Positions 24-56,407 of a stretch of 64,000 nucleotides of DNA are shown here, piece after piece; position 1 is the first letter of the stretch; the number at the start of each line of letters is the position of its first letter. The stretch is from Mesorhizobium sp. PAMC28654. GTDB lineage: Bacteria; Pseudomonadota; Alphaproteobacteria; Rhizobiales; Rhizobiaceae. The notes under the pieces were generated by a model that was not told the origin of the DNA, ran no database searches, and was given only the letters and a program-made list of their open reading frames with translations. Location: contig NZ_CP085135.1 of assembly GCF_020616515.1 (NCBI RefSeq), positions 5,317,001-5,381,000 on the forward strand. The letters run 5' to 3'. Position numbers and translations under genes: made by a program.

Positions 24-791
24 CTATTCAATGAGGCCCAGCCGGAGCGCCTTGGCCACGGCCTGGTTCCGGTTGACCGCGTTGAGCTTCTGGGTGGACT
101 GGGTCAAGTACTGGTTGGCGGTATGGACCGAGAGCTTCAGCAGCCGTGCGATCTCCTCGCTGGTGTTGCCGTTGGCGGTCAGCTTCAGGCATTCGAGTTC
201 GCGCTTGGAGATCGACCGCACCCTGCCGACGTCGCCTGGACGGATGCGGGCAACCGCGGAAAACAGCGAAAAACAGCGCGCGTGAATTTCGTAGAGCATG
301 TCCTGCCGCAAGGCGATTTCCGAGCCCAGGAAGACGACCAGGCCGCACTGGCCACGATCCGCATGGACGGGAAAGGCGATACCGCTGGTGCCTGGCGCGA
401 GCGGAGACATCTGCTCCGTCCAGGAAAGATTGCGGAACACATCGGCCGAGCCGGTCAAGCCGTCATCCGTCCACCAGCGCGGTTCGGTCGACATGCCGGT
501 GTGGCGGACGATCTCCTCGCCATTGGCGCCCGAGATGAATTTCGTCGTGACCGCAACGCCGGGATAGTCCGAATCGAGGCATGGCACGAGACGTGCGCGC
601 TCGGGTGAAGGACTGACGAAGAACAGCCCGAATGCCGAAGCGTTGATGTCGACGGAGATCCAGCGGCACCGGCGCACGGCATCCGGAATCGTGACGGCAT
701 GATGCGGTTCGGAACCCGGCGGGAGCGCGTCAAAGAGGTTCTGTTCGGTGGACGGGGCTTCGGCTCCGTGCCTGACGTCAGCATGTTTCAA
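24..791 (-). CDS. LuxR-family transcriptional regulator (solo), first of a coupled pair
   Basis: 255-residue protein. The C-terminal ~65 residues form a typical GerE/LuxR helix-turn-helix (SKRELECLKLTANGNTSEEI, then the recognition-helix segment around HTANQYLTQ). The N-terminal ~170 residues have the size and layout of an autoinducer-binding domain but do not show an obvious canonical ligand-pocket signature. No luxI-type synthase is in the window, so this is a 'solo' LuxR. The start is TTG at 789-791, not ATG: the upstream gene's TGA stop overlaps it as TTGA, which argues for translational coupling and for this rare start. The next in-frame Met lies about 100 residues in and would destroy the sensor domain. 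Ligand and targets cannot be inferred. Confidence 0.85.
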   Translation of the reverse strand: MKHADVRHGAEAPSTEQNLFDALPPGSEPHHAVTIPDAVRRCRWISVDINASAFGLFFVSPSPERARLVPCLDSDYPGVAVTTKFISGANGEEIVRHTGMSTEPRWWTDDGLTGSADVFRNLSWTEQMSPLAPGTSGIAFPVHADRGQCGLVVFLGSEIALRQDMLYEIHARCFSLFSAVARIRPGDVGRVRSISKRELECLKLTANGNTSEEIARLLKLSVHTANQYLTQSTQKLNAVNRNQAVAKALRLGLIE

Positions 792-1498
792 ATGATGCCG
801 CTCCTGATTGCCGTCGCAATGGCCATGGCGCGGTTGCTGGCCGCGAATTTCTGGATGGCGTGGGTGATGTAGCTGTTGACGGTGTTCGACGAGACGCCAA
901 GGATGACCGCCACTTCATCGGTGGTCTTGCCTTCGGAGACCCAGAACAGACATTCGCGTTCGCGGTCGGACAGCGGGTCCTGCATGGCGGCGGCCGCGAT
1001 CAGCTGCGGAATGTGCGAGAGCGCGTAGCAGCATTTCAACTGCGCCTTCATCAGCGCCGGCCGGTCGATCCTGCCGGCCTCGGAGGCCGAAAACAGCGCG
1101 AACAGACGCTGGCGGCCGACATTCAGCCGCAGCGAATAGATTTCCGCGTGGCCGAGCACGTCGAGAAGACGCGCCTCCTCGCCGCTGACCAGGCCACCTG
1201 TATCAGGTGCCCGGGCAGCCACGAACGGTGTCGGCTGGATGCCGGGCGCCGCGGTGAGCATGCCTTGGGCAAGCCCTGCGATCAGCCTTTTGCCGATCAG
1301 CTCGATGGCGTCGAAGATCCAGTTGGAAGAAACGATGCGCGCGTCGTTGCGGTCCTGGTCATGGACGATGGCGACGAGCATGTAGCTGTCGGCGCCGATG
1401 TCGGCGGCAAGCTGCATGAAAAAGCTGGTGAGGTCGCCGCGCGACGCCAGGCGCGAGCCTGATGGGTCGGACTGAAGAAGGGCGGCGGGGCTGCTCAT
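788..1498 (-). CDS. LuxR-family transcriptional regulator (solo), second of a coupled pair
   Basis: 236 residues from the ATG at 1496-1498; a longer frame opens at a TTG at 1615, but its extra 39 residues look non-coding. The C-terminus carries a GerE helix-turn-helix (LSDRERECLFWVSEGKTTDE, then SSNTVNSYITHAIQKF). The N-terminal region resembles the autoinducer-binding fold in length only. It lies upstream of, and overlaps by 3 bases, the other LuxR gene, so the two are probably made from one mRNA in similar amounts and may act together or on each other. The two proteins share the architecture and the HTH layout but are clearly diverged, consistent with an old duplication. Confidence 0.83.
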   Translation of the reverse strand: MSSPAALLQSDPSGSRLASRGDLTSFFMQLAADIGADSYMLVAIVHDQDRNDARIVSSNWIFDAIELIGKRLIAGLAQGMLTAAPGIQPTPFVAARAPDTGGLVSGEEARLLDVLGHAEIYSLRLNVGRQRLFALFSASEAGRIDRPALMKAQLKCCYALSHIPQLIAAAAMQDPLSDRERECLFWVSEGKTTDEVAVILGVSSNTVNSYITHAIQKFAASNRAMAIATAIRSGII

Positions 1499-2099
1499 TT
1501 CAATGCTTTTGGCCGGAATCGATTCTGATGTCCGGATGCTGGCGTCACCAGCGGCCGAACTTGAACACGCGTTACTTTCACGAAGACACAACTCAAGGCG
1601 CGGAGCCGCACCCAATCGGACCGAATCCTTTCAGGGAACGCGAACCTGTCCGCGTCTGGTGCCGGAAAACTCCGGAACGTGAGACTTTGGGTGGTCGCCG
1701 CGCCCCCCGGCGGAACGGCTGATTCGGGTCTAATCTAACCCCAGTTGAATCCGACATCAAACACGAATTGACAGAATCGAATCTCATGGACTCGCGCCGA
1801 CTCGGGAAGGCAGATTTCAAGGGCCCGACGCGTTGCTGTCACGAGACAATCAATCCTGCCGCGGACGTGCCGTGTCGTCAGCTTATCGGTTGCGATAGAG
1901 CGTCGCGCCGCCATTTTAAGGTGCAGGGACGCGCTTCAAGACTTTTGAAATTGCCTGTTGTGCTGTCCGAAATCGATTCCGGTTTGCGCGTCGGTGCTAT
2001 AGGTTCCGGCCGCCGCAGCGGCGGGGAATCGTTGCGGTTTGCATGGTTTGGGGCGAGATCGGCCGCGTTGAGGCGCGGCCATCGGCAGGGGGTTTGACG
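1499..2099. other. Intergenic region between divergent genes; no gene seen
   Basis: About 600 bases separate the LuxR pair (minus) from the TMEM43-like gene (plus). Short frames on both strands here have no family resemblance or convincing ribosome binding site. It must hold the promoters for both directions. A run of C and G around 1700-1720 and an AT-richer stretch near 1735-1790 are visible, but I could not identify a defined promoter or operator. Confidence 0.5.
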
Positions 2100-3292
2100 A
2101 TGAGTGATTCATTTCGCGAGGTTACATCCGTCTCGTGGTTCGGGCGGATCAAGCGTGCGGTCGGCGGTCTGTTCGTGGGGCTGCTGCTGATCGTGCTGAT
2201 GGTGGCCGGTCTGTTCTGGAACGAGGGGCGCGCGGTGCAGACGGCGCGCTCGCTGGCGGAGGGCGCCGACGCCGTTGTCTCGGTCGATGCCAGCAGCGTC
2301 GATGCAGCCAATGACGGCAGGCTGGTCCACGCCACTGGCACCGTGACGGCAAGCAGCGGCCTTTCCGATCCGGATTTCGGCATCTCGGCGCAAGGGCTGC
2401 GGCTGTCGCGCGGCGTCGAGATGTACCAGTGGAAGGAGGAGCAGAAATCCGAGACCACCACCAAGCTCGGGGGCGGCGAGGAAACCGTGACCACCTACAG
2501 CTATTCGAAGGGGTGGGACGACCAGCCGATCGCGTCCTCGGGATTCAAAAAGCCGGACGGCCATGAAAATCCGCCGATGCAGATCAGGGGCAGGCAGTTC
2601 CAGATTCCGGTGGGCAAACTTGGCGCCTTCATGCTCGATCAGCCCGTGCTGGACCGGATCGAAGGCGATGAGGCGTTCGCGCTTTCGCCGGACCAGGCGG
2701 CTGCCATCGGCGGCGCGTATTCGGGAAACAAGCGGGTCAACGTCGTCGACGGCAAGATCTATCTCGGCGCCGACACCACGTCGCCGGCGATCGGCGACTA
2801 TCGCATCGGGTACGATCTGGCGCCGCTCGGCGTGGTCAGCGTCATCGCGCGCCAGAGCGGCGGCCAGTTCGCGCCCTACCAGACGGCGGCCGGCGACCCG
2901 TTGCTGATGGTGGACATGGGTGCCGTGCCGGCACAGAAGATGTTCGCCGACGCGGTCAGCGAAACACGCTGATCACCTGGCTGCTGCGCGCCGCCGGCCT
3001 GTTGCTGCTGACGATCGGCTTCGCCATGTTCCTCAGCCCGATCGGCGTGATCCTCGACGTCATCCCGTTCCTGGGCAGCGTCGCGCGGATGGGAACCGGG
3101 ATCATCGCCTTCTTCCTGGCGATCCTGGTTGGCACCACGACGATCGCCATCGCCTGGTTCTGGTATCGCCCGGTGCTGGCGGCAGGCATCCTGGCAGCCG
3201 GTGTGATCGCGGCGGCGGCCGTCTACTATCTCGGCCGCTCCCGCAAGGCAGCAGAGCCGATGTCCATGCCGAGCCCCAGCGCCGCGACCTGA
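2100..3292 (+). pseudogene. TMEM43-family membrane protein gene, frameshifted near the 3' end
   Basis: The first frame runs from ATG 2100 (GGCAGGGGG upstream) to a TGA at 2970-2972 and holds one N-terminal membrane helix (GLFVGLLLIVLMVAGLFW) followed by the long soluble region typical of TMEM43/DUF1625 proteins. The missing C-terminal part continues in the -1 frame from about 2960 to 3292: TWLLRAAGLLLLTIGFAMFL, then the family-typical segment around DVIPFLGSVARMG and two further membrane helices. Spliced together, the product is about 397 residues, the usual size with one N-terminal and several C-terminal helices. No classical slippery heptamer is visible at the junction (AGCGAAACACGCTGA), so a one-base indel or a sequence error is more likely than programmed frameshifting. 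The role of bacterial TMEM43 proteins is unknown. Confidence 0.75.
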
Positions 3293-3333
3293 CCTGACCC
3301 TTTTTCTCTATACGTTGGTCCGAAGTACGGGCT

Positions 3334-4365
3334 CTACCGATCCTCGAAACCGGTGAGCACGCCGACGGCGTTGATGCCGATCTCCTCGACGGCATAGCCG
3401 CCTTCCTGGACGAACAGCGTCGGCAGGCCGAGCTTGGCGATGCGGCGGCCGATCTTGGGGTAGTCGGGGCTCTTCAGCTTGAACTGGCTGATCGGGTCCT
3501 TCTCGAACGTATCGACACCGAGCGAGACAACGACGACATCCGGCGCATAGGCGGCAAGCTTGGCGCAGGCATCTTCCAGCGAGGCGTTCCAGGTGTCCCA
3601 GGTTGTGCCGAAGGGCATCGGGTAGTTGATGTTGAAGCCTTCGCCCGCGCCGGCGCCGCGTTCGTCGGCATGGCCGAGGAAGAACGGATATTCGACCATC
3701 GGGTCGCCGTGCAGGTTGATGACCTGGACGTCGGCGCGCTCGTAAAAGATTTCCTGCGTGCCGTTGCCATGGTGGTAGTCGACGTCGAGGATGGAGACAC
3801 GGCTGGCACCCTGGTCGCGAAACCATTGCGCGGCGACGGCGGCGTTGTTGATGTAGCAATAGCCGCCCATGAAGCCGGCTCCGGCATGGTGGCCGGGCGG
3901 GCGGCACAGCGCGAAAGCGGATGTCTCGCCGCCCTTGACCAGTCCGGCGGCGGTCAACGCCACGTCGTAGGAGGATTTGATCGCGGCCCAGGTGCCCTCG
4001 ACGAAGGTGGCGCCGCCATCGAAGGAATAGTAGCCGAGCAGGGCATCGATACGCTTTGGCGGCACGTCGCCGCGCAGGCCACGCGTCGGCCAGGTGAAGG
4101 GCATTGCCGACCCCTTGAAGCCGGCCTCTACCCACTGCGGCCAGACGGTCGGCAGGAAGTCTATATAGTCGGCCTTGTGGATACGCTTGGCGGCGGCAAG
4201 ATCATGCTCGACCGGTGCGATGATCGGGCCCAGCTTCTCGCTTTCGACGCGTGCCTTGATGAACTCCGCCCGCGAGGGCTTTTCGAAACCCGGCACGATG
4301 GCCGCGGTAACAAGTTCCATTTGGCCGGCATGTCCAGCATGAAGCGGCGAATAGACAGTCTTCAT
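3334..4365 (-). CDS. aphA: Acetylpolyamine amidohydrolase (histone-deacetylase superfamily)
   Basis: 343 residues, almost the same length as the characterised Mycoplana enzyme (about 341). It hydrolyses the acetyl group from N-acetylputrescine, acetylcadaverine or acetylspermidine, giving the free amine for catabolism. The key HDAC-fold residues are visible: the His pair H159-H160 in CRPPGHHAG, zinc ligands D196 and H198 in LDVDYHHGN, D285 in SLGVDTFEKD, and the transition-state Tyr Y324 in EGGYAVEE. The gene lies 23 bases downstream of a TetR regulator on the same strand, so they are probably co-transcribed and this gene is probably controlled by it. The divergent polyamine-type importer supports the substrate class. 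Cytoplasmic: no signal peptide. Confidence 0.9.
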   Translation of the reverse strand: MKTVYSPLHAGHAGQMELVTAAIVPGFEKPSRAEFIKARVESEKLGPIIAPVEHDLAAAKRIHKADYIDFLPTVWPQWVEAGFKGSAMPFTWPTRGLRGDVPPKRIDALLGYYSFDGGATFVEGTWAAIKSSYDVALTAAGLVKGGETSAFALCRPPGHHAGAGFMGGYCYINNAAVAAQWFRDQGASRVSILDVDYHHGNGTQEIFYERADVQVINLHGDPMVEYPFFLGHADERGAGAGEGFNINYPMPFGTTWDTWNASLEDACAKLAAYAPDVVVVSLGVDTFEKDPISQFKLKSPDYPKIGRRIAKLGLPTLFVQEGGYAVEEIGINAVGVLTGFEDR

Positions 4366-4388
4366 AAAATTCCTCTCGAAGTGCGAAA

Positions 4389-5042
4389 TTAGTCAAGATT
4401 GAGATAGGGGCTCACCAGGGCGAGCCACATGGTTTCCACATCGTCCTCGATGAGGTCGAAGGTCCTGCGATCTTTCTTCAGTCCCACAAGCCGGCAGACG
4501 TGCCCGACCTCCATCATCACCACGCCGAGCCGGCTGGCGATCTTGTCTTCAAGAGCCGGGTTCACATGCCGCAGCCATGCGGCGTAGAGGGCAATGATCT
4601 GGTCGTCATATTCGTTCTGGATCGGCCTGAGGTCGGCGTTGCCGGATATAGCCTCGATCACCGGCATCAGGCTGGCGTTTTCGAGATAGAGCCTGGAGGT
4701 GTCGATGAAGAGCTTGCGCACTTCGTGCCGAAACTCTTCGCGGTTGGTGGGCGGGGCGACCTTGATGCGCTTCGCGATCACCTCGGGAAAGGAAGACAGC
4801 CAGCGCCGGGCGAGGTCCAGAAGAATGGCTTCCTTGTTGGGAAAGTATTGGTAGAGCGAACCGACCGACAAGCCCGCGCGCTGCGCAATGGCGAGCGTCG
4901 TTGGTGTCCTGGTTCCTTGTTCCCGCGTCAAGATCAGCGCCGCGTCGAGAATCCTGTCGACCACCTTGCTTGACCGTTGTTGCCGCGGCTGCTTGCGCGG
5001 TTCGAGCGCTATCCTGGTTTTGCGGTCGAGACTGCGCTTCAC
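4389..5042 (-). CDS. TetR/AcrR-family transcriptional regulator
   Basis: 217 residues when started at the GTG at 5040-5042, which has a well-spaced GAGG about 8 bases upstream; a longer frame opens at 5147, but the added N-terminus is Cys/His/Pro-rich and unlike the family. Residues ~20-65 form the TetR DNA-binding domain (RILDAALILTREQGTRT, then LSVGSLYQYFPNKEAILLDL, a textbook recognition-helix motif). The C-terminus is an all-helical ligand domain of unknown specificity. The neighbours (acetylpolyamine amidohydrolase downstream; amidohydrolase and polyamine-type ABC genes divergent) suggest it senses an amine or acyl-amine and represses both directions. A candidate operator lies at 5132-5149. 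Confidence 0.88.
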   Translation of the reverse strand: MKRSLDRKTRIALEPRKQPRQQRSSKVVDRILDAALILTREQGTRTPTTLAIAQRAGLSVGSLYQYFPNKEAILLDLARRWLSSFPEVIAKRIKVAPPTNREEFRHEVRKLFIDTSRLYLENASLMPVIEAISGNADLRPIQNEYDDQIIALYAAWLRHVNPALEDKIASRLGVVMMEVGHVCRLVGLKKDRRTFDLIEDDVETMWLALVSPYLNLD

Positions 5043-5131
5043 TGCTTGATGTCCTCGTTCCCCGCCTGGTCCCAACACAAGCGCAGGGTGCTGCCCACAA
5101 TACATTCTAAATTCCGCATGTTGACAAACGC

Positions 5132-5149
5132 GAATGATTAGTCGCATTC
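5132..5149. promoter_or_regulatory. Candidate TetR operator in the divergent promoter region
   Basis: GAATGATTAGTCGCATTC is an 18-bp imperfect palindrome with perfect outer arms GAATG/CATTC, a common shape for TetR-family sites. It starts 6 bases downstream of a TTGACA hexamer at 5121-5126, so a bound repressor would block a plus-strand promoter. It also lies 90 bases upstream of the tetR GTG on the other strand. The assignment rests on symmetry and position only. Confidence 0.4.
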
Positions 5150-5158
5150 TTTATCCAC

Positions 5159-5197
5159 GCTGTCTTCAGGGATAACAAGGGGAATTTAGAAGACAGC
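5159..5197. repeat. 9-bp inverted repeat upstream of the amidohydrolase gene
   Basis: GCTGTCTTC (5159-5167) and GAAGACAGC (5189-5197) are perfect inverted copies with a 21-base spacer. The pair sits in the predicted 5' leader of the plus-strand gene at 5301. It could form an mRNA hairpin or be a binding site for a dimeric regulator. No T-tract follows, so it is not a simple terminator. Confidence 0.4.
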
Positions 5198-5300
5198 ACA
5201 CTGGATCAATCTTTGTCCCATGGCGTCATTCCAGAGGAGTGGCAGGTCGTTGGAGACAGGGTTGCCGGTCTTAGTCAGTCGTCAAAAGCGCGGAGTCGCG

Positions 5301-6977
5301 ATGTCTGTCACGGGTGCGGGTCACTATGCGGATCTGATCGTCATCAATGGTCACGTCCTGACCATGGACGATGACAATCCCGCCACCGAGGCCGTTGCCG
5401 TCAAGGACGGCGCCATCATCGCCGTCGGTAGCCGCGCCGCCATCGAAGAGCTCAAGGGACCGGCCACCAAGGTCATCGACGCCAAGGGCGGTTCGGTGGT
5501 CCCGGGCTTCATCGAAGCCCACATGCATCTGTTTTCGGGCGCGGCCGAGCTTGCCCATCTTCAGCTTGCTGGTGTTCATGGCTTCGAGGCGCTGCAAAAG
5601 GCTATCAGCGACTATGCGCCAACGCGGCCGGATGCGAAAATGCTGGTCGGGCAGGGTGTCGACTATACCGTGCTTGGCGACGAGCGGGTGACGCGCCACC
5701 ATCTCGACCAGATTCTGCCGGACCGGCCTTTCGTCATGGCCGCTCCTGATCATCACACAATGTGGGCCAACACCAAGGCGCTGGAAATGGCCGGCATTCT
5801 GCATGGCCGCACGCTTGGTCCGGGCAACGAGATCGTCATGGGTGACGATGGCCTGGCCGCTGGCGAACTGCGCGAGGGCGAAGCCTTCGGCCCGGTGCTC
5901 GATCTTGCCGGCGAAAGCCGGGTGCGGCTGGGGCTGTCGACTGGTGGCGAGCCGGACCCAATGCCGACGCCGGCGGAGCGCGCCGCCGACCGGGACATCA
6001 TGCGGCGCGGCCTCGCCTGGTGCGCGCGCCACGGCATCACCTCGATCCAGAATATGGATGGCAATCTCTATCAGCTCGAATTGCTGGCCGAGATCGAAGC
6101 CGAGGAAGGCTTGTCCTGCCGCGTCCAGATACCGTTCCACTACAAGAATTTCATGACGCTCGACATGCTGGAGAAGGCATCCGAGATGGCCAAGCGCTAC
6201 GACAGCGAATGGCTGTCGGGCATGGTCAAGGTGTTCTACGACGGCGTGCTGGATTCCTGGACAGCCGTCATGGTCGAGCCCTATGCGGACCGCCCGGACT
6301 GGGTGGGCGAGCCGCTGTTCACGCCGCAGCAGTTCATCCACCTGGCCGTTGCCATCGACAAGCGGGGGCTCCAGATCGCCGTGCACTCGATCGGCGACGG
6401 CGCCGTACGCGCTGTCCTCGACGGTTATGAGGCCGCGCAAAAGGCCAATGGCAAGCGCGACAGCCGGCACCGGGTCGAGCATATCGAAGTCACCACGACC
6501 GCCGATGTGCCGCGTTTCGCCGAGCTCGGCGTCATCGCGTCGATGCAGCCGCCGCACCCGCCAGGCGCCATGGACTTTCCGCTGGAGCCGACCGTGTCGC
6601 GCATCGGGCCGGCGCGCTGGCCGCTGAGCTATGCCTGGCGGACGCTGAAGGATGCCGGCGCGCATGTCGTCTTTGCTTCGGACTGGCCGGTGTCGCCGAT
6701 CGATCCGATCCTGGGCATCCAGGCGGCGGTGCTGCGCAAGCCATGGGCGCAGAGCGATCCGGACCAGAGTTTCTCGGTCCGTGAGTCGTTGGCGGCCTAT
6801 ACCGTTGAGGGCGCCTATGCCGAATTCGCCGAGCATCGCAAGGGCGCGCTGAGGCCGGGATACATGGCCGATCTGGTGGTGCTGTCGGCCGACATCGAGG
6901 CAATCGACCCCGAGATGATTCATCATGTGCGATCGCAGATCACGATCTGTGGCGGCAAAGTCACCCATCAGGCTTGA
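5301..6977 (+). CDS. Metal-dependent amidohydrolase, YtcJ/Amidohydro_3 type
   Basis: 558 residues from the ATG at 5301, which has GGAG at 5292; an in-frame upstream start at 5220 would add 27 unlikely residues. Features of the amidohydrolase superfamily are clear: the N-terminal beta-sandwich (ADLIVINGHVLTMDD, then VKDGAIIAVG), the first metal site EAHMHLF, a mid-barrel His in IAVHSIGDGA, a HRVEHIE motif, the Asp in FASDWPVSP, and the C-terminal return to the sandwich (GALRPGYMADLVVLS). YtcJ-type enzymes hydrolyse amide or carbamoyl bonds in small molecules, but individual substrates are mostly unknown. It heads a plus-strand run with a polyamine-type importer, so an N-acylated amine is a reasonable but unproven substrate. 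Confidence 0.85.
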   Translation: MSVTGAGHYADLIVINGHVLTMDDDNPATEAVAVKDGAIIAVGSRAAIEELKGPATKVIDAKGGSVVPGFIEAHMHLFSGAAELAHLQLAGVHGFEALQKAISDYAPTRPDAKMLVGQGVDYTVLGDERVTRHHLDQILPDRPFVMAAPDHHTMWANTKALEMAGILHGRTLGPGNEIVMGDDGLAAGELREGEAFGPVLDLAGESRVRLGLSTGGEPDPMPTPAERAADRDIMRRGLAWCARHGITSIQNMDGNLYQLELLAEIEAEEGLSCRVQIPFHYKNFMTLDMLEKASEMAKRYDSEWLSGMVKVFYDGVLDSWTAVMVEPYADRPDWVGEPLFTPQQFIHLAVAIDKRGLQIAVHSIGDGAVRAVLDGYEAAQKANGKRDSRHRVEHIEVTTTADVPRFAELGVIASMQPPHPPGAMDFPLEPTVSRIGPARWPLSYAWRTLKDAGAHVVFASDWPVSPIDPILGIQAAVLRKPWAQSDPDQSFSVRESLAAYTVEGAYAEFAEHRKGALRPGYMADLVVLSADIEAIDPEMIHHVRSQITICGGKVTHQA

Positions 6978-7099
6978 TGGCGCTGGGGGCTTGCTTTCTC
7001 GATTGGGATCGGCTGAGGTGGTCGGGCTGACCAGCTTTCGGGAACAATCAAACAACAATCAGACCTGCCCCCAACGGCAGGCTAAACAATGGGGTAATC

Positions 7100-8200
7100 G
7101 TGCCGGATCAACCGGGTAAGAATGCAATTGAAGTTCGTGGCGTCCGCAAGGTGTTCGGCACCGGCGAGGCGCAAGTGGCGGCTCTCGACACGGTTTCGGT
7201 GTCGATCCGCGAAAACGAGTTCTTCACGCTGCTCGGACCTTCCGGGTGTGGAAAGACGACTCTGCTCAGGCTGATCGCCGGCTTCGACTTTCCAAGTGCC
7301 GGCGAAATCCTGCTCCATGGTCAGGACATCGCCGTGCTGCCGCCATTCAAGCGGCCGGTCAACACCGTTTTCCAGTCCTACGCGCTGTTCCCGCACATGA
7401 CGGTGGCCGAGAATATCGGCTTCGGTCTGGAGATGCTGGGCAAGCCGAAGGCCGAGATCAAGGCGCGCGTCGCCGAGATGCTGAAGCTGGTCAAGATGGA
7501 AGCGCTGGCGGCTCGCCGCACCAGCCAGATCTCCGGCGGCCAGCAGCAGCGCGTGGCGCTGGCCCGGGCGCTGGCGCCGCAGCCGAAAGTGCTGCTGCTC
7601 GACGAACCGTTGTCGGCGCTCGACTACAAGCTGCGCAAGGACATGCAGATCGAGCTGAAGCGGCTGCAGAACGAGACCGGCATCACCTTCATCTTCGTCA
7701 CCCATGACCAGGAAGAAGCGCTGACGATGTCGGACCGCATCGCGGTGATGTCGTCGGGCAAGATCCTGCAGGTCGGCTCGCCGCGCGACATCTACGACCG
7801 GCCGGCCGAGCGGTTCGTCGCCGACTTCATCGGTGAATCGAACTTCCTCAAGGCCGATGTGGTGGGCGTGTCCGCTGGCAAGGCGACGGTGAAGCTGTCA
7901 TCGGGCGTGGAAATCCCGGCCACGCTGCCGGATGGCTTTACCCCGGACGGCAAGGTCACCATCGTGGTGCGCCCCGAACATTCGCAGTTGAGCGCGACCA
8001 GTTCCAGCGCCTCGCTTTCCGGCACGGTCGAGAACGTGGTCTATCTGGGCACGGACACCCATTTCCATCTTCGCCTTGATGATGGCGAACCCTTCATCGT
8101 GCGGCGGCAAAACAGCCGCGGCGTCGGCGACGGGATCGTGCAGGGCGGCAAGGTCGGCATCCTCATCGGTGGCGACGCCGCCCAGGTCCTGAAGGATTGA
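7100..8200 (+). CDS. Polyamine-type ABC transporter ATP-binding protein (PotA-like)
   Basis: 366 residues starting at GTG 7100 with GGGG 9 bases upstream. The nucleotide-binding domain has the Walker A motif GPSGCGKTT (residues 46-54), the signature [15 protein letters not shown], Walker [13 protein letters not shown] and the switch His in FVTHDQEEA. The C-terminal ~110 residues are a TOBE/OB-type regulatory domain as in PotA. It powers uptake through the two permeases that follow. Its stop overlaps the next gene's start region (TGATGATG), so the operon is tightly coupled. Family assignment is secure; the exact amine is not. Confidence 0.92.
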
Positions 8201-8202
8201 TG

Positions 8203-9123
8203 ATGGCGACTGCGGAAGAAGTCGCCAAAGCGGCGGAGCGGCGGGACATTCGTGACCGCTGGTTCCTGTCGGCGCCGGCGCTGTTGATCATTTTCTTGGC
8301 GGCGACCGGCCCGCTGCTGATCGTGCTGGTCTATTCGTTCCTGACGCCCGGCGCCTATGGCGACGTGAAGTGGCAATTCTCGCCCGACGCCTGGACATCG
8401 GTGCTGCTGGAACGCGATATTTTCGACGATACGCTTTCGCTCGCGGCGGCGCACGTCACCATCTTCCTGCGCTCGATCAAGCTTGCCGTCGTGACGACGA
8501 TCGCCACTTTGGCGCTTGGGTTCCCGACCGCCTATTTCATGGCGACGCGCAGCGAAAAGACCAGGGATCTCTGGCTGTTCCTGATCACCATTCCGTTCTG
8601 GACGAACCTGCTGATCCGCACCTTCGCGGTGCTGCAGATCATCCGCAACGAAGGCATCATCAACACGATCCTGCTCAAGCTCGGCATCATCTCGGCGCCG
8701 ATCCAGATCCTCTACACCGACACGGCGATCCTCATCGGCATGGCCTATGTCTATCTGCCGCTGATGGTGCTGCCGATCTACGCCAGCATGGAGAAGCTCG
8801 ATTTCCGGCTGGTGGAAGCGGGCTATGATCTCTACGCGACGCGCTTCAAGGTGCTGCGCAAGATCATCTTCCCGCTGGTCAAACCTGGCGTCATCGCGGG
8901 TTCCATCCTTGTCTTCATTCCCGCACTTGGCGCCTATGTGACGCCGAGCGTGCTGGGCGGTGGCAAGAACATGATGCTGTCCAACCTGATCGAATTGCAG
9001 TTCGGCCAAGGCCGTAACTGGCCACTGGGTTCAGCGCTGTCGATCACCGTCATGCTGATCGTCATGGTGGCGCTGCTTGCCTATGTGCGCAATGCCGGAA
9101 AGTCGGGGGTGCGTCATGGCTAG
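8203..9123 (+). CDS. Polyamine-type ABC transporter permease (PotB-like)
   Basis: 306 residues from the second of two adjacent ATGs (8203), which is better placed from AAGGA (8192-8196) than the one at 8200. Six predicted membrane helices, starting with SAPALLIIFLAATGPLLIVLV. The cytoplasmic EAA-type loop that docks on the ATPase is visible as EAGYDLYATRFKVLRKIIFPL. It pairs with the next permease to form the inner-membrane channel. The gene overlaps its downstream partner by 8 bases. Confidence 0.9.
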   Translation: MATAEEVAKAAERRDIRDRWFLSAPALLIIFLAATGPLLIVLVYSFLTPGAYGDVKWQFSPDAWTSVLLERDIFDDTLSLAAAHVTIFLRSIKLAVVTTIATLALGFPTAYFMATRSEKTRDLWLFLITIPFWTNLLIRTFAVLQIIRNEGIINTILLKLGIISAPIQILYTDTAILIGMAYVYLPLMVLPIYASMEKLDFRLVEAGYDLYATRFKVLRKIIFPLVKPGVIAGSILVFIPALGAYVTPSVLGGGKNMMLSNLIELQFGQGRNWPLGSALSITVMLIVMVALLAYVRNAGKSGVRHG

Positions 9124-9916
9124 CAACTTCTCCATCAAGCATCAGCCGGGATTCACCGCGATCGCGGCGACCTGTTTCGTGGTGCTCTATCTGCCGATAC
9201 TCGTGCTGGTCGTTTACGCCTTCAACGCGGCAAGCTCGACGTCCGAATGGGGCGGGTTTTCGCTCAGATGGTTCCAGTCGGCATGGCAGAATACGCAGGT
9301 CATCGACGCGACGCTGCGCTCCTTCCAGATCGGCGCCATCGCCGCGACGCTTGCCACGATCTGCGCCACCATGGCCGCGCTCGCCACCACGCGCACCGCT
9401 TCCTATCCCGGCCTCACCTTCAAATACGCGGCGATCAACCAGCCGCTGATGGTGCCCGAGATCGTCACCGGCGTGGCGCTGCTGATCTTCTTCTCGCGCA
9501 TCAAGATCTTCACCGGCTATTCCGGCCTCGGCTATCTGATCGCCGCGCACACGGCGTTCTGCATTCCCTTCGCCTATCTGCCGATCCGGGCGCGGCTGGA
9601 GAATATGGACCTGACGCTGGAACGCGCCGCCGCCGATCTCTACGCGACGCCGTGGAAGACCTTCCGGCGCATCACGCTGCCGCTTTTGTGGCCGGGCATC
9701 CTTGCCGGGCTGATGCTGGCCTTCGTCATCTCGCTTGATGATGTGGTCATCACCGAGTTCGTCAAGTCCGGCGGCCAGGATACGCTGCCGACCTACATGC
9801 TCGGCCAGATACGCCGCGGCATAACACCCGAGATCAACGCGATATCGACCGCCTTCCTGCTGCTTTCGGTCGCGATCGTCACGTTGTTTTTCATCATCAG
9901 CAGGAAACGAGACTGA
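9116..9916 (+). CDS. Polyamine-type ABC transporter permease (PotC-like)
   Basis: 266 residues from ATG 9116, inside the end of the previous permease gene; an upstream in-frame start at 9077 lies further inside that gene and is unlikely. Hydrophobic helices begin with AIAATCFVVLYLPILVLVVY. The EAA loop reads ERAAADLYATPWKTFRRITL, followed by PLLWPGILAGLML. As in potABCD operons, this second permease is shorter than the first. The next gene, a binding protein, begins 22 bases on. Confidence 0.9.
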   Translation: MASNFSIKHQPGFTAIAATCFVVLYLPILVLVVYAFNAASSTSEWGGFSLRWFQSAWQNTQVIDATLRSFQIGAIAATLATICATMAALATTRTASYPGLTFKYAAINQPLMVPEIVTGVALLIFFSRIKIFTGYSGLGYLIAAHTAFCIPFAYLPIRARLENMDLTLERAAADLYATPWKTFRRITLPLLWPGILAGLMLAFVISLDDVVITEFVKSGGQDTLPTYMLGQIRRGITPEINAISTAFLLLSVAIVTLFFIISRKRD

Positions 9917-9938
9917 ACCGACAATGGGAGCTAAAAAC

Positions 9939-10973
9939 ATGAACTGGAAGACAACAGCAACCGCCATGGGGTTGGCGTTGCTCGCCACGACGGGCCTCGC
10001 CCGCGCCGACGGCGTGCTGAACATCTACAATTGGGGCAACTACACCAGCCCCGACGTGATCAAGAAGTTCGAGGCCAAGTACAACGTCAAGGTCACGATC
10101 ACCGACTACGATTCGAACGATACGGCGCTCGCCAAGGTTCGCCAGGGCGGTACCGGCTTCGACATCGCGGTGCCTTCGCAGACCTACATTCCGATCTGGA
10201 TCAAGGAAGGCCTCATCCAGGAGACCGATCCGGGCAAGATGGAAAACTTCAAGAACGTGGCGGCGGATTGGGCCAATCCCGATTTCGACCCAGGCCGCAA
10301 ATACAGCGTTCCGTGGGCTTGGGGTACGATCGGCGTCGTCGTCAACACCGACGCCTACAAGGGCCCGGCCAATACATGGGGCATCGTCTTCAACACGCCG
10401 GACGAGCTGAAGGGCAAGGTCAACGTCGTTCCCGAAATGGGCGACGTGATGTTCGCCGCGATCAAGTATGTCGGCGGCCAGCAGTGCACGGACGACAAGG
10501 TTGTGCTGAAGAAGGTGCGTGACCTCTTGGTGGCGGCCAAGCCGAACTGGATCGCCATGGAATACAACACCATCGAGAAGATGGGCGCCGGCGACTTCAA
10601 GGCGACCAGCGACTGGAATGGTTCGGCGCTGCGCCAGCGGCTGGCCAACCCGGCCATCCACTTCAACTATCCGAAGGAAGGCTATGGCCTGTGGAGCGAC
10701 AACGTGGTCGTTCTGAAGGAAGCCAAGAACGTCGAGAACGCCAAGCTGTTCCAGAACTTCATCATGGATCCGGAAAACGCGGCGGGTCTCTCGGCCTTCC
10801 ATCGCTACGCCAACGCCATCACCGGTTCGGACAAGTTCATGCCAGCCGACATGAAGGATGCGCCGGAAGTCGTCATTCCGGCCGAAGACAAGCCGCTTGG
10901 CGAGTTGCAGAAGATGTGCCCGCCGGAAACCCAGGAACTCTACACCAAGATCTGGACCGAGCTGCAGAAGTAA
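9939..10973 (+). CDS. Polyamine-type ABC transporter substrate-binding protein, copy 1 (PotD/PotF-like)
   Basis: 344 residues from ATG 9939, chosen because GGGAG at 9926-9930 is well spaced from it; a second ATG at 9924 overlaps that site. Residues 1-23 are a Sec signal peptide ending ...GLARA before DGVLNIYNWGNYTSPDVIKK, the usual start of mature PotD-family proteins. Periplasmic; it delivers substrate to the permeases just upstream. The Trp/Tyr/Asp-rich segments (YDSNDTALAKV, WIKEGLIQ, SVPWAWGT) are those lining polyamine pockets in the family. It is closely similar along its whole length to the next gene, indicating a recent tandem duplication. Confidence 0.9.
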   Translation: MNWKTTATAMGLALLATTGLARADGVLNIYNWGNYTSPDVIKKFEAKYNVKVTITDYDSNDTALAKVRQGGTGFDIAVPSQTYIPIWIKEGLIQETDPGKMENFKNVAADWANPDFDPGRKYSVPWAWGTIGVVVNTDAYKGPANTWGIVFNTPDELKGKVNVVPEMGDVMFAAIKYVGGQQCTDDKVVLKKVRDLLVAAKPNWIAMEYNTIEKMGAGDFKATSDWNGSALRQRLANPAIHFNYPKEGYGLWSDNVVVLKEAKNVENAKLFQNFIMDPENAAGLSAFHRYANAITGSDKFMPADMKDAPEVVIPAEDKPLGELQKMCPPETQELYTKIWTELQK

Positions 10974-11002
10974 GCTTCGCGCGTTCTACCAACATCATCG
11001 CG

Positions 11003-11030
11003 GCCGGGATCGATAAAGATCGATCCCGGC
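11003..11030 (+). promoter_or_regulatory. Strong intercistronic hairpin after binding-protein copy 1
   Basis: GCCGGGATCGAT, loop AAAG, ATCGATCCCGGC: a perfect 12-bp stem with a 4-base loop, 30 bases after the stop of the first binding protein. No T-run follows, so it is more like an mRNA 3'-end stabiliser or pause hairpin than an intrinsic terminator. Such elements often allow binding proteins to be made in excess over permeases. Confidence 0.6.
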
Positions 11031-11093
11031 TGATCACCAGCGTCTTATCTGCGCTTTTGCAGAAGACGTCACAGGTAAAAAGGGAATATTGCC

Positions 11094-12128
11094 GTGAATT
11101 TGAAATTGTCCGCCGCCACGGCGGCCCTGGCCCTGTTGGCCGCAACCAGCTTCGCTCATGCCGATGGTGCGCTCAACATCTACAATTGGGGTAACTACAC
11201 CAGCCCCGACGTCATCAAGAAGTTCGAGGAGAAGTACCAGGTCAAGGTGACGATCACCGACTACGACTCCAACGACACGGCACTCGCCAAGGTGCGCCAG
11301 GGCGGCAGCGGCTTCGACGTCGCCGTTCCCTCGCAGACCCACCTGCCGATCTGGATCAAGGAAGGGCTTTTGCTCGAGACCAATCCGGGCGGCATGGAGA
11401 ACGCCAAGAACATCGCGCCTGAATGGGCCAATCCCGAATTCGATCCCGGCCGCAAATATTCCGTGCCGTGGGCTTGGGGAACGGTCGGCACCGTCGTCAA
11501 CACCAGCACCTACAAGGGCGATATCAACACCTGGGGGATCATCTTCAACACGCCTGACGAGCTGAAGGGCAAGGTCAATGTCGTTCCTGAAATGAAGGAC
11601 GTCATGACCGCTGCGATCCGCTATGTCGGCGGCGAGCAGTGCACGGCTGACAGGGACGTGCTGAAGAAGGCGCGTGACCTGCTGGTTGCGGCCAAGCCGA
11701 ACTGGGTCGCGATGGAATACAGCGCCATCGACAAGATGAAGGCCGGCGATTTCCAGGCCTCCACCACCTGGAACGGGGCGGGACTGCGCATCCGGCTGGC
11801 GCGCCCCGAAGTCCACTTCGGCTATCCGAAGGAAGGTTTCACCTACTGGAGCGACAACGTCGTCGTGCTGAAGGACGCCAAGAACGTCGAGAACGCCAAG
11901 CTGTTCCAGAACTTCATCATGGACCCCGAGATCGCGGCCGGGCTTTCCGCCTATCACCGCTATGCGAACGGCATCGCCGGGTCGGAGAAGTTCATGCCGG
12001 CGGAGATGAAGGACGCACCCGAGATCATCATTCCGGAGGCCAGCAAGCCGCATGGCACGATGGCCATGATGTGCGCGGCGGAGACCGATGCGATCTACAC
12101 CAAAATCTGGACCGAGCTGCAGAAGTAA
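11094..12128 (+). CDS. Polyamine-type ABC transporter substrate-binding protein, copy 2 (PotD/PotF-like)
   Basis: 344 residues starting at GTG 11094 with AAAAAGGGA upstream. It has a signal peptide (NLKLSAATAALALLAATSFA, cleaved near AHA-DG) and then the same mature start as copy 1 (GALNIYNWGNYTSPDVIKK). The length is identical to copy 1 and the sequence is very similar throughout, with differences at scattered positions such as TYIPIWIKEGLIQ versus THLPIWIKEGLLL. Two binding proteins feeding one importer would broaden the substrate range or tune affinity. Periplasmic. Confidence 0.9.
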   Translation: MNLKLSAATAALALLAATSFAHADGALNIYNWGNYTSPDVIKKFEEKYQVKVTITDYDSNDTALAKVRQGGSGFDVAVPSQTHLPIWIKEGLLLETNPGGMENAKNIAPEWANPEFDPGRKYSVPWAWGTVGTVVNTSTYKGDINTWGIIFNTPDELKGKVNVVPEMKDVMTAAIRYVGGEQCTADRDVLKKARDLLVAAKPNWVAMEYSAIDKMKAGDFQASTTWNGAGLRIRLARPEVHFGYPKEGFTYWSDNVVVLKDAKNVENAKLFQNFIMDPEIAAGLSAYHRYANGIAGSEKFMPAEMKDAPEIIIPEASKPHGTMAMMCAAETDAIYTKIWTELQK

Positions 12129-12139
12129 GCCGACCATCA

Positions 12140-12167
12140 GAGCCTGGCACCGGCTGGTGCCGGGCTC
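12140..12167 (+). promoter_or_regulatory. Strong intercistronic hairpin after binding-protein copy 2
   Basis: GAGCCTGGCACC, loop GGCT, GGTGCCGGGCTC: a 12-bp stem with one G-T wobble and a 4-base loop, 12 bases after the stop codon. It has the same geometry (12-bp stem, 4-base loop) as the hairpin after copy 1 but a different sequence, so the shape rather than the sequence has been kept. No T-run follows. Confidence 0.55.
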
Positions 12168-12190
12168 TCCCATTTCAGGCTGGTGATGCC

Positions 12191-13387
12191 ATGAGTTCCT
12201 ACCGCAACAGCGACCCGCTACCGCCGATCATGCAGGGCTCGCCGCCAACCATGGTGCCGCCGAAGCTCGACTGGGACCGTGCACCCTGGAATCGCTGGGC
12301 CTTCCAGCATATCCGCGAAATCCTGCCGACCGTCGAGGTCTGGCGCGGCAGCGGCCATCGCCACCGCTTTGAGCGGACCGAGGTCGATCTCGACGCGCTG
12401 CCAGTAAGTGACAGCGCCGGCGCCGCCACGACGCTGGCCGGGCTGCTCGACGAGACTTATACCGACGGCTTCCTTGTGCTCAAGGACGGCAAGATCGCCT
12501 ATGAGCGCTATTCCAACGGCATGACCGACCGGTCGCTGCACCTGTCGCAGTCGATGGCGAAGTCGATCACCGGCTCGGTGTTCGGCATATTGGTCGGGCG
12601 CGGCCTGATCGATCCGGCGCTGCCGGTAACAAACTACCTGCCGGAACTCAGCGTGACCGGATGGGCCGGCGCCAGCGTGCGGCACGTGCTGGACATGACG
12701 ACCGGCGTGCGCTTTTCCGAGGCGTATACCGACCGCTATTCGGACATCGGCCAGGTCGATGTCGCGACCGGCTGGAAGCCAGTGCCGCCCGGCAGCGATC
12801 CGGATTTTCGCTGGCCGGCGCATATGTATGAGGTGATCCTCGGGCTCAAGGATACGGTCCGGCCGCATGGCGCGGCGTTCGAATATCGCTCGATCGAGAC
12901 CGACGTGCTCGCCTTCATCATGGAGCGGGTAACCGGCAAGCGGCTGGCGCAACTGGTTTCGGAAGAGCTCTGGCAAAAGCTCGGCGCCGAGGAAAGCGCT
13001 TGTTTCACCGTCGACAGCGCCGGCTACGCGCTTGCCGATGGTGGCTTCAACGCGACGCTGCGCGACTATGGCCGCTTCGGCCAGCTGATCCTCGACAATG
13101 GGCGCGGTATCGTGCCGGCCGAATGGATCGAGGCAACGCGCACCGGCAGGCACGGGCCGGATTTCAGTTCGAGCCTGCCCGAAGGCAGCTACCGCAACCA
13201 GTTCTGGATCGAGAATCCCAGCTCGCGCGCGCTGATGTGCCGGGGCGTGTTCGGGCAGATGATCCATATCGACTGGAACACAGGAATGGTCGTGGTGAAG
13301 CTTTCGACCTGGCCGGATTTCAGCAATGTCGCCTATTCGGTGGCGACGGTGAAAGCCGTGCATGCCATCGCCGCCGCCCTGGCCTGA
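12191..13387 (+). CDS. Serine hydrolase, class C beta-lactamase / NylB-like fold, first copy
   Basis: 398 residues from ATG 12191. The active-site Ser-x-x-Lys is S121-M-A-K124 (QSMAKSITGS) and the Tyr motif is Y232-R-S, spaced as in class C beta-lactamases, esterases and 6-aminohexanoate-dimer hydrolases. No signal peptide is seen, so it is probably cytoplasmic, which speaks against a role in antibiotic resistance or the cell wall. It follows the importer genes on the same strand and is followed by a second member of the same family, so an amide- or ester-hydrolysing role on the imported compound is plausible. The substrate is unknown. Confidence 0.8.
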   Translation: MSSYRNSDPLPPIMQGSPPTMVPPKLDWDRAPWNRWAFQHIREILPTVEVWRGSGHRHRFERTEVDLDALPVSDSAGAATTLAGLLDETYTDGFLVLKDGKIAYERYSNGMTDRSLHLSQSMAKSITGSVFGILVGRGLIDPALPVTNYLPELSVTGWAGASVRHVLDMTTGVRFSEAYTDRYSDIGQVDVATGWKPVPPGSDPDFRWPAHMYEVILGLKDTVRPHGAAFEYRSIETDVLAFIMERVTGKRLAQLVSEELWQKLGAEESACFTVDSAGYALADGGFNATLRDYGRFGQLILDNGRGIVPAEWIEATRTGRHGPDFSSSLPEGSYRNQFWIENPSSRALMCRGVFGQMIHIDWNTGMVVVKLSTWPDFSNVAYSVATVKAVHAIAAALA

Positions 13388-13434
13388 GCCCAGAAAAGAC
13401 CAAGTCCTAAAAACGAGACCCGGAAGGAACCGCC

Positions 13435-14616
13435 ATGACCGGCAAGACCGCGTTCGAAACCCGATATGGCTTTGCCCGCAACAAGGTGCAGCTCGCCAAC
13501 TGGCGCGAAAACCCGTTCAACCGTTGGTCGTTCCAGAACCTCGGCGAACTGGTGCCGACCGCGCGCATTGCGGCAGCATCGGGCGCCAGCGAGGCCCCCG
13601 CGAAGGATCTGGGCGGACTGCTCAACGAAAAGGTCGCCATTTCCGGCGGCACCGAGACCGTGACCGGCTTTCTTGCGCGCTCCAGCACCGATGCGCTGAC
13701 GATCATGAAAGGCGGCAAGCTCGTCGGCGACTGGTTCGCGCCGCATATGGATTTCGGCGCGCGTCACATCGTCTTTTCGGTCAGCAAGTCGCTGACCGCC
13801 ATCGTCGCTGGGATACTGGAGGGCGAGGGCGTTTTCGATCCGGAAGCCCCGGTGGCCAGGTACATTCCGGAAGCCGCCAGCTCGGCCTATGGCGATGCGA
13901 CGGCGCGGCACGTGCTGGACATGACGGTCAGCCTCGATTTCGAGGAAGCCTATCTCGATCCGGAAAGCGCCTTTGCCCGCTATCGTCGCGCCACGCTGTG
14001 GAATCCGGGCGGCGGCAGTGAAAGCCTGCGCGAGTTTCTGCTGACCTTGCAGCGCCTTGCCGAACCGCATGGCCAGACCTTCCGCTACCGCTCGCCCAAT
14101 TCCGACCTGCTCGGCCTGCTGCTCGAACGCGCGTCGGGCCAGCGCTTCACCGACCTGATGCGCGACAAGCTTTGGCAGCCGCTGGGTGCGGTCAGCGAAG
14201 CATCGGTGGGTGTCGACATGGAAGGCACGGCGCGCACCGCCGGTGGCATTTCGGTGACGCCGCGCGATCTGGCCCGCGTCGGCGAGATGATGCGGCAGGG
14301 CGGCATGGCCAATGGCCGCCGCGTCGTGCCGCAGGCCTGGGTCGAGGACACGACCAGCACCGGCGGCAGTTCGGATGCCTGGCAGCGTGGCACGATGGTG
14401 CCGCTGTTTCCGCAAGGCCGTTACCGCAACAAATGGTACCAGTCGGGCAAGCCGAGCGGCGCCTATTGCGGCATCGGCATCCACGGCCAGTGGCTCTATG
14501 TCGACCCGAAGGCGGAAGTGGTGATCGCCAAGATGTCGTCACAGCCGGAGCCTGTCGACGACCCGCTGGATATCGAGATCGTCGCGTTCTTCGAGGGGCT
14601 GACCCAACTGGTCTGA
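13435..14616 (+). CDS. Serine hydrolase, class C beta-lactamase / NylB-like fold, second copy
   Basis: 393 residues from ATG 13435 with AAGGA 8 bases upstream. The Ser-x-x-Lys motif is S115-V-S-K118 (VFSVSKSLTA) and the Tyr motif Y218-R-S-P-N. Both this and the preceding protein share the family block ATARHVLDMT/ASVRHVLDMT and the C-terminal GxYRNxxW segment, but are clearly diverged, so the duplication is old. No signal peptide. Last gene of the apparent amine-uptake and hydrolysis run; the next gene (tex) is housekeeping. Confidence 0.8.
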   Translation: MTGKTAFETRYGFARNKVQLANWRENPFNRWSFQNLGELVPTARIAAASGASEAPAKDLGGLLNEKVAISGGTETVTGFLARSSTDALTIMKGGKLVGDWFAPHMDFGARHIVFSVSKSLTAIVAGILEGEGVFDPEAPVARYIPEAASSAYGDATARHVLDMTVSLDFEEAYLDPESAFARYRRATLWNPGGGSESLREFLLTLQRLAEPHGQTFRYRSPNSDLLGLLLERASGQRFTDLMRDKLWQPLGAVSEASVGVDMEGTARTAGGISVTPRDLARVGEMMRQGGMANGRRVVPQAWVEDTTSTGGSSDAWQRGTMVPLFPQGRYRNKWYQSGKPSGAYCGIGIHGQWLYVDPKAEVVIAKMSSQPEPVDDPLDIEIVAFFEGLTQLV

Positions 14617-51070: not shown

Positions 51071-51092
51071 TTTTATCTCTTTCTCTTCAGGT

Positions 51093-52500: not shown

Positions 52501-52508
52501 CAAATATC

Positions 52509-53627: not shown

Positions 53628-53702
53628 CTACAAATCCGGCTTGTTGCGATGCGGCTCCAGGCCAGGCGGCAGGAGCCGCCAGGCTTTTCGCGGTTCGGCC
53701 CG

Positions 53703-54731: not shown

Positions 54732-54766
54732 GGCAGTTCCCCTTTGTTTTGGGCGCGTCTAGCGGC

Positions 54767-56406: not shown

Positions 56407-56407
56407 C

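Follow-up and report, generated by a model that had tools for sequence, protein, structure and literature searches.

A 64,000-nucleotide stretch of Mesorhizobium sp. PAMC28654 (the window; positions 5,317,001 to 5,381,000 of a 6.70-Mb single-contig genome) contains a conserved gene cluster in which a polyamine-type ATP-binding cassette (ABC) importer is coupled to several probable amide hydrolases. The cluster encodes an acetylpolyamine amidohydrolase (APAH), a TetR-family regulator, a YtcJ-type amidohydrolase, the importer PotABC with two binding proteins, and two serine hydrolases, SH1 and SH2, that resemble NylB, the 6-aminohexanoate-dimer hydrolase (Table 1). We consider it probable (roughly 0.6) that the cluster is a salvage island under TetR control, serving N-acylated di- and polyamines together with related amine amides. 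The cluster is real, conserved and coherent, and its gene families are known; what is new is the combination of genes, the exchange of hydrolases between loci, and the opposite charges carried by SH1 and SH2 at one active-site position. An earlier note on this DNA, made from the letters alone, had named the same set of genes, all of which were found where it placed them, and its central idea, an amine-type importer coupled to several probable amide hydrolases, is borne out by the analysis reported here.

The arrangement is not a product of chance, since it recurs in many genomes. A survey of 297 genomes of the same family found an SH1 homologue at 1e-80 in 41 of them and gave 49 SH1 places, 48 of which lie outside the window genome; the 40 regions examined cover 41 of these 48. 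The 20 best SH1 loci outside the window genome all carry PotA, PotB, PotC, a binding protein and SH1 together, with YtcJ just upstream in 19 and APAH next to them in 18 (in 14 within the stretch itself and in 4 according to coordinates). A set of 80 named loci, the best 80 of 394 relatives and found through SH1, consists of close kin, as 77 are titled Mesorhizobium; YtcJ, PotA, PotB, PotC and SH1 are present in 80/80, APAH and SH2 in 79 each, TetR in 51 and an amidase in 7. With distance the arrangement thins out. PotABC lies beside SH1 in 12 of 20 regions from other genera and families, no such pairing is seen in 7, and one region on a short contig (L203) holds PotC, a binding protein and SH1 only; among 6 further regions the pairing was observed in one, from another order of the class. 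At one locus (L196, in genome G609) the SH1 match has an internal stop and PotA is matched in two pieces, which reflects either decay or an assembly error.

A wider comparison used 51 loci from 27 genera and 5 families, after 4 of 55 had been dropped for want of a PotB match (L195, L203, L281 and L297). APAH, YtcJ and PotABC occur together in 38 of the 51, with APAH entered by hand from coordinates for 11 loci, 7 of which also show it directly. A neighbourhood confined to this strain, which the earlier note had named as refuting its reading, is thus contradicted both here and in the 80 named loci. In 20 regions hand-picked from the APAH and YtcJ match lists (not a random draw), APAH, YtcJ, PotABC and a binding protein are present in 18, and SH1 is present in none of the 20 stretches. 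Beyond this core, the 18 regions carry SH2 (5), SH2 with AguB, an N-carbamoylputrescine amidase (3), an amidase-signature enzyme with AguB (2), AguB (2), or none of the four slot hydrolases SH1, SH2, amidase and AguB (6). All four are likewise missing from 6 of the 51 comparison loci.

The slot hydrolases also vary where SH1 is kept. SH2 is missing from six of the 20 best SH1 loci, four of which have an amidase-signature enzyme of 475 to 478 residues beside SH1; SH2 and the amidase are both present in two loci, and in other families it is usually the amidase that accompanies SH1. Because identity thresholds defined these counts (44% and above for SH2), the most diverged SH2 copies, at 45 to 48% (L290, L291 and L294), are less sure. 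Because 38/51 loci and 18/20 regions keep APAH, YtcJ and the importer with varying slot hydrolases, these form the most stable unit, to which SH1, SH2, the amidase and AguB are exchangeable additions. Taken singly, and at the cut-offs used, APAH (118/297 genomes) and YtcJ (91/297) are both commoner than SH1. The single fixed pathway of eight to nine genes proposed earlier is therefore ruled out: the common core is just APAH, YtcJ, PotABC and a binding protein, and the hydrolases beyond APAH and YtcJ come and go between loci, which is the chief change to the earlier picture.

The view that several amide hydrolases surround the importer is, by the same comparison, strengthened, since relatives add two more hydrolases of amide or ureide type, the amidase-signature enzyme and N-carbamoylputrescine amidase. 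The amidase of the relatives has the Amidase domain (PF01425, 4.1e-87 in one member) and the Lys-Ser-Ser signature, with K82, S157, S158 and S181 kept in 18/18. Among solved structures it comes closest to an aryl acylamidase (3.8e-56), and it falls in the superfamily of NylA, the 6-aminohexanoate-cyclic-dimer hydrolase (8e-38). AguB, an enzyme of agmatine degradation, joins the cluster in several relatives and lies over the N-carbamoylputrescine amidase cut-off (TIGR03381) in 4/4 tested (424 to 468 versus 410 bits).

Both SH1 and SH2 have NylB, and no beta-lactamase, as nearest solved relative, and a signal peptide was not visible by eye in either. The SH1 residues Ser121-x-x-Lys124, Tyr179, Asp190, Tyr232 and Asp283 are invariant in 17 aligned orthologues. 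In the numbering of NylB, Ser112, Lys115, Tyr170, Asp181 and Tyr215 are kept by SH1 in 35/35 rows linked to the Pot-type importer, and position 266, Asn in NylB, is Asp in 33 of these rows and Cys or Ser in 2. SH2 keeps Ser112-x-x-Lys115, Tyr170 and Tyr215, with Arg at position 181 and Ala at position 266, in 15/15 rows and, in an overlapping set, 22/22. The catalytic residues thus place both proteins among the NylB-type serine hydrolases, in agreement with the earlier note. The pair Asp181 and Asn266, which is reportedly important for hydrolysis of the linear dimer by NylB (PMC7019077), is incomplete in SH1, which lacks Asn266, and absent from SH2. Because Asn266 is replaced, SH1 is described as NylB-like and is not filed as the dimer hydrolase itself.

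Since SH1 has Asp and SH2 has Arg at NylB position 181, the two enzymes probably prefer differently charged substrates. We take Asp181 of NylB to contact the amino end of the acyl half, and from this contact SH1 would favour an amino-bearing and SH2 a carboxylate-bearing acyl part. A class C beta-lactamase function finds no support for either, the best beta-lactamase models scoring 21.9 bits for SH1 (BlaEC, cut-off 850) and 31.5 bits for SH2 (blaLHK, cut-off 850). A recent tandem duplication giving SH2 from SH1 is also ruled out, as they stand on separate branches of a tree of 94 hydrolase rows built by a quick method. NylB joins the SH2 side of this tree, its place being unsure because it is joined by long branches. 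The Pot-linked rows cluster in the tree, with 10 label changes versus a shuffled mean of 31.4 and a value as low in 0/500, a clustering that is inflated by close copies; a group linked to dipeptide-type importers sits among them.

Hydrolases of this kind were also observed beside other transporters. A dipeptide-type ABC importer adjoins an SH1-like hydrolase on R. leguminosarum plasmid pRL9b2 (L233) and at L063-L067, L070 and L207, with an amidase between the two in L233 and in 5/7 of the other such loci; genes for a C45 peptidase and an RpiR regulator accompany the plasmid copy. On Mesorhizobium plasmid pMspAR02c (L232), an SH1-like hydrolase is accompanied by an ABC importer and by succinate-semialdehyde dehydrogenase, dapA-like and hydantoinase genes. 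The window genome itself has an SH2 paralogue (L008, G000:C1:2002003-2003175), 52% identical, encoded immediately behind an ABC permease and an ATPase that by eye resemble an amino-acid-type importer.

Judged by its sequence, APAH is a clear member of the acetylpolyamine amidohydrolase family. The solved structures nearest to it are APAHs (9gkz, 6phr and 3q9b; 7.5e-132 for the best), and the HDAC-type zinc-site motifs are retained among its relatives (RPPGHHA in 35/35, DVDxHHGNGTQ in 34/35, LG[VA]DT in 34/35 and EGGY in 35/35). YtcJ combines an Amidohydro_3 domain with a conserved HxH, K, H, H, D set of putative metal-site residues, which by alignment columns are present in 36 (H74 and H76) or all (K310, H362, H394 and D461) of 37 relatives; stricter text patterns matched only 13 to 37 of the 37. 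We know of no characterised member of the exact subgroup to which YtcJ belongs. Its Pfam family, PF07969, has characterised members such as N-substituted formamide deformylase, aminoacylase and metal-dependent bile salt hydrolase, and several of those listed act on amides (PMC13081902, a preprint), so that an amide substrate for YtcJ is plausible by analogy; the family also has deaminases and others. In work on a Pseudomonas putida ytcJ mutant, the function was called unknown (PMC8766522).

The importer is assigned to the polyamine type by its ATPase, as PotA passes the cut-off of the polyamine ATPase subfamily (Table 1). Both binding proteins have a signal peptide visible by eye and match E. 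coli PotD at W34, Y37, W229, W255, D257 and Y293, which are putative polyamine contacts. Two further positions are exchanged (D168 to E and E171 to D), so that 6/10 putative PotD contact positions are identical. Most relatives have a single binding protein at this place, versus two in the window.

A near-palindrome with the consensus AAAyGCGAmTAATTAkTCGCrTTT is conserved in the gap between TetR and YtcJ, and its occurrence was compared with that of TetR. Of 114 loci, 100 had a YtcJ match with enough upstream sequence, 56 with TetR and 44 without; 42 of the latter were usable, the others being L043, where TetR lies at the stretch edge, and L113, whose contig begins inside the cluster and thus offers no true upstream sequence. 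The 16-base core is present at 3 or fewer mismatches in 56/56 loci with TetR, whereas of the 42 usable rows without TetR, 41 differ from it at 4 or more bases and a single row at 3. The presence of the core in TetR loci is partly circular, because the motif was derived from them; its absence from loci without TetR is the informative half, read with the caution that related loci are not independent. In the window genome (6.7 Mb) there is one site at 1 mismatch or fewer, and a reversed control pattern matches three times, so that rarity alone is no evidence. The near-palindrome tracks the presence of TetR and is a candidate TetR operator.

The long TetR open reading frame (ORF) probably starts too early, because its helix-turn-helix begins at residue 66, the codon-based caller starts the gene at 4964, and the conserved palindrome covers the first codons; the true start probably lies further in than 5147. 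A TTGACA at 5121-5126 overlaps the left end of the near-palindrome, and despite it a scan of 5000-5400 found no sigma-70 promoter before YtcJ. The codon-based caller also gave the starts adopted for YtcJ and for SH1, the latter corrected from 12071 in the longest ORF.

Table 1. Features of the cluster, in window positions.
Feature	Positions	Strand	Basis or remark
APAH, zinc deacetylase, HDAC superfamily	3334-4365	-	PF00850 2.3e-63
TetR-family regulator, longest ORF	4389-5147	-	TetR_N at residues 66-111; true start probably further in
Operator-like near-palindrome AAACGCGAATGATTAGTCGCATT, candidate TetR site	5126-5148	no strand	Conserved in TetR-YtcJ gap
YtcJ-type metal-dependent amidohydrolase (Amidohydro_3)	5301-6977	+	PF07969 6.3e-118; longest ORF from 5220
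PotA-type ABC ATPase	7100-8200	+	TIGR01187 389.4 bits, cut-off 355.6
PotB-type permease	8200-9123	+	Top NCBIfam match PotB 1.4e-69, under equivalog cut-off
PotC-type permease	9116-9916	+	Top NCBIfam match PotC 1e-59, under equivalog cut-off
Periplasmic binding protein 1, PotD/PotF type	9939-10973	+	NCBIfam; alignment with PotD
Periplasmic binding protein 2, related to protein 1 and in tandem with it	11094-12128	+	NCBIfam; alignment with PotD
SH1, NylB-like serine hydrolase	12191-13387	+	Nearest solved structure NylB 1.2e-61
SH2, second NylB-like serine hydrolase	13435-14616	+	Nearest solved structure NylB 2e-70

The mechanism that we infer from these genes covers substrates, the direction of transport, induction and the division of labour among the enzymes. 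The binding protein or proteins and PotABC would import the conjugates whole, and cytosolic hydrolases of different folds, one per type of acyl cap, would free the amine. APAH would remove acetyl caps and YtcJ a further acyl cap, while SH1 would cut amides with an amino group on the acyl part and SH2 those with a carboxylate there. SH1, SH2, the amidase-signature enzyme and N-carbamoylputrescine amidase would form an interchangeable set that widens the range of usable conjugates. The free amines would then pass to general polyamine catabolism encoded elsewhere in the genome. Coupling of a polyamine ABC transporter to cytosolic NylB has a precedent in an engineered and evolved P. putida that grows on 6-aminohexanoate dimers and trimers (PMC11879879).

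Several observations weigh against this salvage island. PotB (234.7 versus 348 bits) and PotC (202.3 versus 326 bits) score under the NCBIfam equivalog cut-offs, as do the binding proteins (130-133 versus 582-636 bits, best models PotF/PotD), so that the cargo may be another cation. Moreover, 28 Mesorhizobium loci among the 80 named ones (within L082-L161), and also L045, have a different PotB-PotC-binding-protein block, with mean identities to the window of 58% for PotB, 53% for PotC and 50% for the binding protein (range 49-59%). Beside this block the mean identity stays high for PotA (80%) and SH1 (84%), both within 78-88%, with YtcJ less close at 75%. The cargo-choosing part thus seems to be exchanged as one unit, and the cargo may therefore differ between strains. 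Nor are the SH1 residues special to the polyamine-type importer: among SH1 relatives next to dipeptide-type importers, position 181 is Asp in 10/11 rows and position 266 in 9/11, and of the rows linked to neither importer 16/27 also carry Asp at 181. The Pot-linked rows do not form one clade, at least 6 of the 10 changes in the tree being forced by well-supported branches. Of the 51 comparison loci, 10 showed no APAH and 12 no YtcJ near the cluster, in some cases possibly because the stretch was short. Within the window cluster there is no polyamine-oxidising gene, and no N-carbamoylputrescine amidase over the cut-off was found in the window genome. Finally, the engineered P. putida, which combines the polyamine ABC transporter PP_0411-4 with cytosolic NylB, reached fast growth on the dimer only with additional mutations, including one in the transporter's binding protein (PMC11879879).

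The same engineered strain bears on a reading of the cluster as a natural, nylonase-like oligoamide operon, which we consider unlikely. Like NylB, SH1 would here cleave linear amides starting at their amino end, the importer would take up short cationic oligoamides, and the amidase of relatives would open cyclic or capped forms as NylA does. This is a special case of the salvage island, and the weights given to the two readings overlap. SH1 does keep Asp181 and the catalytic residues of NylB, the amidase shares the NylA superfamily and retains Lys82, Ser157/158 and Ser181, the pair of amidase and NylB-like hydrolase recurs by dipeptide-type importers, and a polyamine importer with NylB works in the engineered strain (PMC11879879). 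However, Asn266 is Asp in 33/35 SH1 rows and SH2 differs at both positions, the amidase has an aryl acylamidase as its best solved relative, the core without SH1 is common, and the window cluster has no amidase. Linear oligoamides, also named in the earlier note, are possible substrates.

A second alternative is the plain uptake and deacylation of acetylpolyamines (and carbamoyl- or formyl-amines), with SH1 and SH2 as unrelated esterase- or peptidase-like hydrolases parked in the operon. APAH is the clearest enzyme of the cluster, and the core occurs without SH1 and SH2 and, in the 6/51 loci mentioned above, without any slot hydrolase. This explanation is nevertheless doubtful, given that SH1 lies beside the importer in all 80 named loci (found through SH1) and in other families, that its catalytic residues are invariant in 35/35, and that the amidase is often present where SH2 is missing.

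The use of hydroxycinnamoyl-polyamines, suggested in the earlier note, found no specific support and is very improbable. The hosts are plant-associated by name, and among solved structures the amidase of relatives is nearest to aryl acylamidase; the window cluster is without this amidase, however, and both SH1 and SH2 have charged residues at the Asp181 position of NylB, which would suit charged acyl parts better. Of the earlier interpretation, then, the coupling of importer and amide hydrolases and its conservation stand, and the fixed pathway and the hydroxycinnamoyl substrates are not supported. The remaining alternative, siderophore degradation, is the least probable of all. Desferrioxamine B is a hydroxamate siderophore in which amide bonds join diamines into a chain. 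M. loti reportedly cleaves these bonds with a serine protease (PMC10866069, with reference to Zaya et al. 1998), and SH1, a serine hydrolase that is kept throughout the named Mesorhizobium loci, would be that enzyme. Against this, the molecule is much larger than the ligand of PotD, and each of the five TonB-dependent receptors over the cut-off in the window genome is located at a distance of over 1 Mb.

The salvage island can be set beside systems already described. In P. putida (PMC11879879) the polyamine-type importer is likewise paired with a cytosolic NylB-type enzyme, although there the pairing arose by engineering and laboratory evolution, whereas that in the window looks native and conserved. 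The nylA, nylB and nylC genes of Arthrobacter and Agromyces resemble the cluster in that SH1 and SH2 are NylB-like, the amidase of relatives belongs to the NylA superfamily, and nylB/nylC also have importer genes (Opp) in their vicinity (PMC7019077); they differ in that the window importer is of the polyamine type and that Asn266 (SH1) or Asp181 and Asn266 (SH2) are replaced. PA0321 and PA1409 of P. aeruginosa, of the same enzyme family as the window APAH, are reported to be predominantly true acetylpolyamine amidohydrolases, and the available portion of that source does not mention NylB-like or YtcJ partners (PMC4784309). The open-licence literature searched gave no description of this cluster, no joint treatment of APAH and 6-aminohexanoate-dimer hydrolase, and, by title, no 6-aminohexanoate work in Mesorhizobium on this topic. 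There was no Mesorhizobium, Rhizobium or polyamine in the available main text of PMC10858056, and the part of PMC11532494 at hand has one operon passage and nothing on rhizobia. Polyamine-transport genes presumably lie near PA0321 and PA1409 as well.

Some neighbouring genes were noted. Upstream of APAH, at window positions 24-2972, lie two LuxR-type helix-turn-helix regulators (one family-tested) and a TMEM43 protein, a position kept in many relatives. At L046, an aldehyde dehydrogenase gene (3108-4535, minus strand) adjoins APAH; its top model is betaine-aldehyde dehydrogenase, below the cut-off, and aminobutyraldehyde models match too, so its product is a possible next step for the released amines. 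In L190, L191, L193, L194 and L198, from one other family, the cluster adjoins genes that look by eye like those of histidine utilisation, and before PotA an SDR oxidoreductase gene recurs as well. The window also holds, at 49460-57097 on the minus strand, a second importer of similar type (an ATPase with a TOBE domain, a binding protein and two permeases), with a GntR regulator, a thiamine pyrophosphate enzyme, an HpcH/HpaI aldolase and an RraA-like protein as neighbours. No RNA families at gathering score and no tRNAs were found in the window.

Nylon is synthetic, and NylB-type enzymes pose the question of a natural role. The cluster suggests a natural job for NylB-like enzymes, the recovery of amines from conjugates, and a native, conserved operon that joins a polyamine-type importer to two NylB-like enzymes with opposite charges at one specificity position makes the question of that role testable with few compounds. 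It is a tentative and rather unlikely further step that NylB-type and amidase-signature hydrolases are natively at home in polyamine-importer operons of the Hyphomicrobiales, with SH1 acting on cationic (amino-acyl) and SH2 on anionic acyl amides. If this is true, the hydrolysis of nylon oligomers would descend from natural amine-amide salvage, and Mesorhizobium could use natural linear oligoamides, possibly including fragments of desferrioxamine. The finding points to natural sets of importer and hydrolases for polyamide oligomers, and to N-acyl amines as a class of nutrients that soil and nodule bacteria may use.

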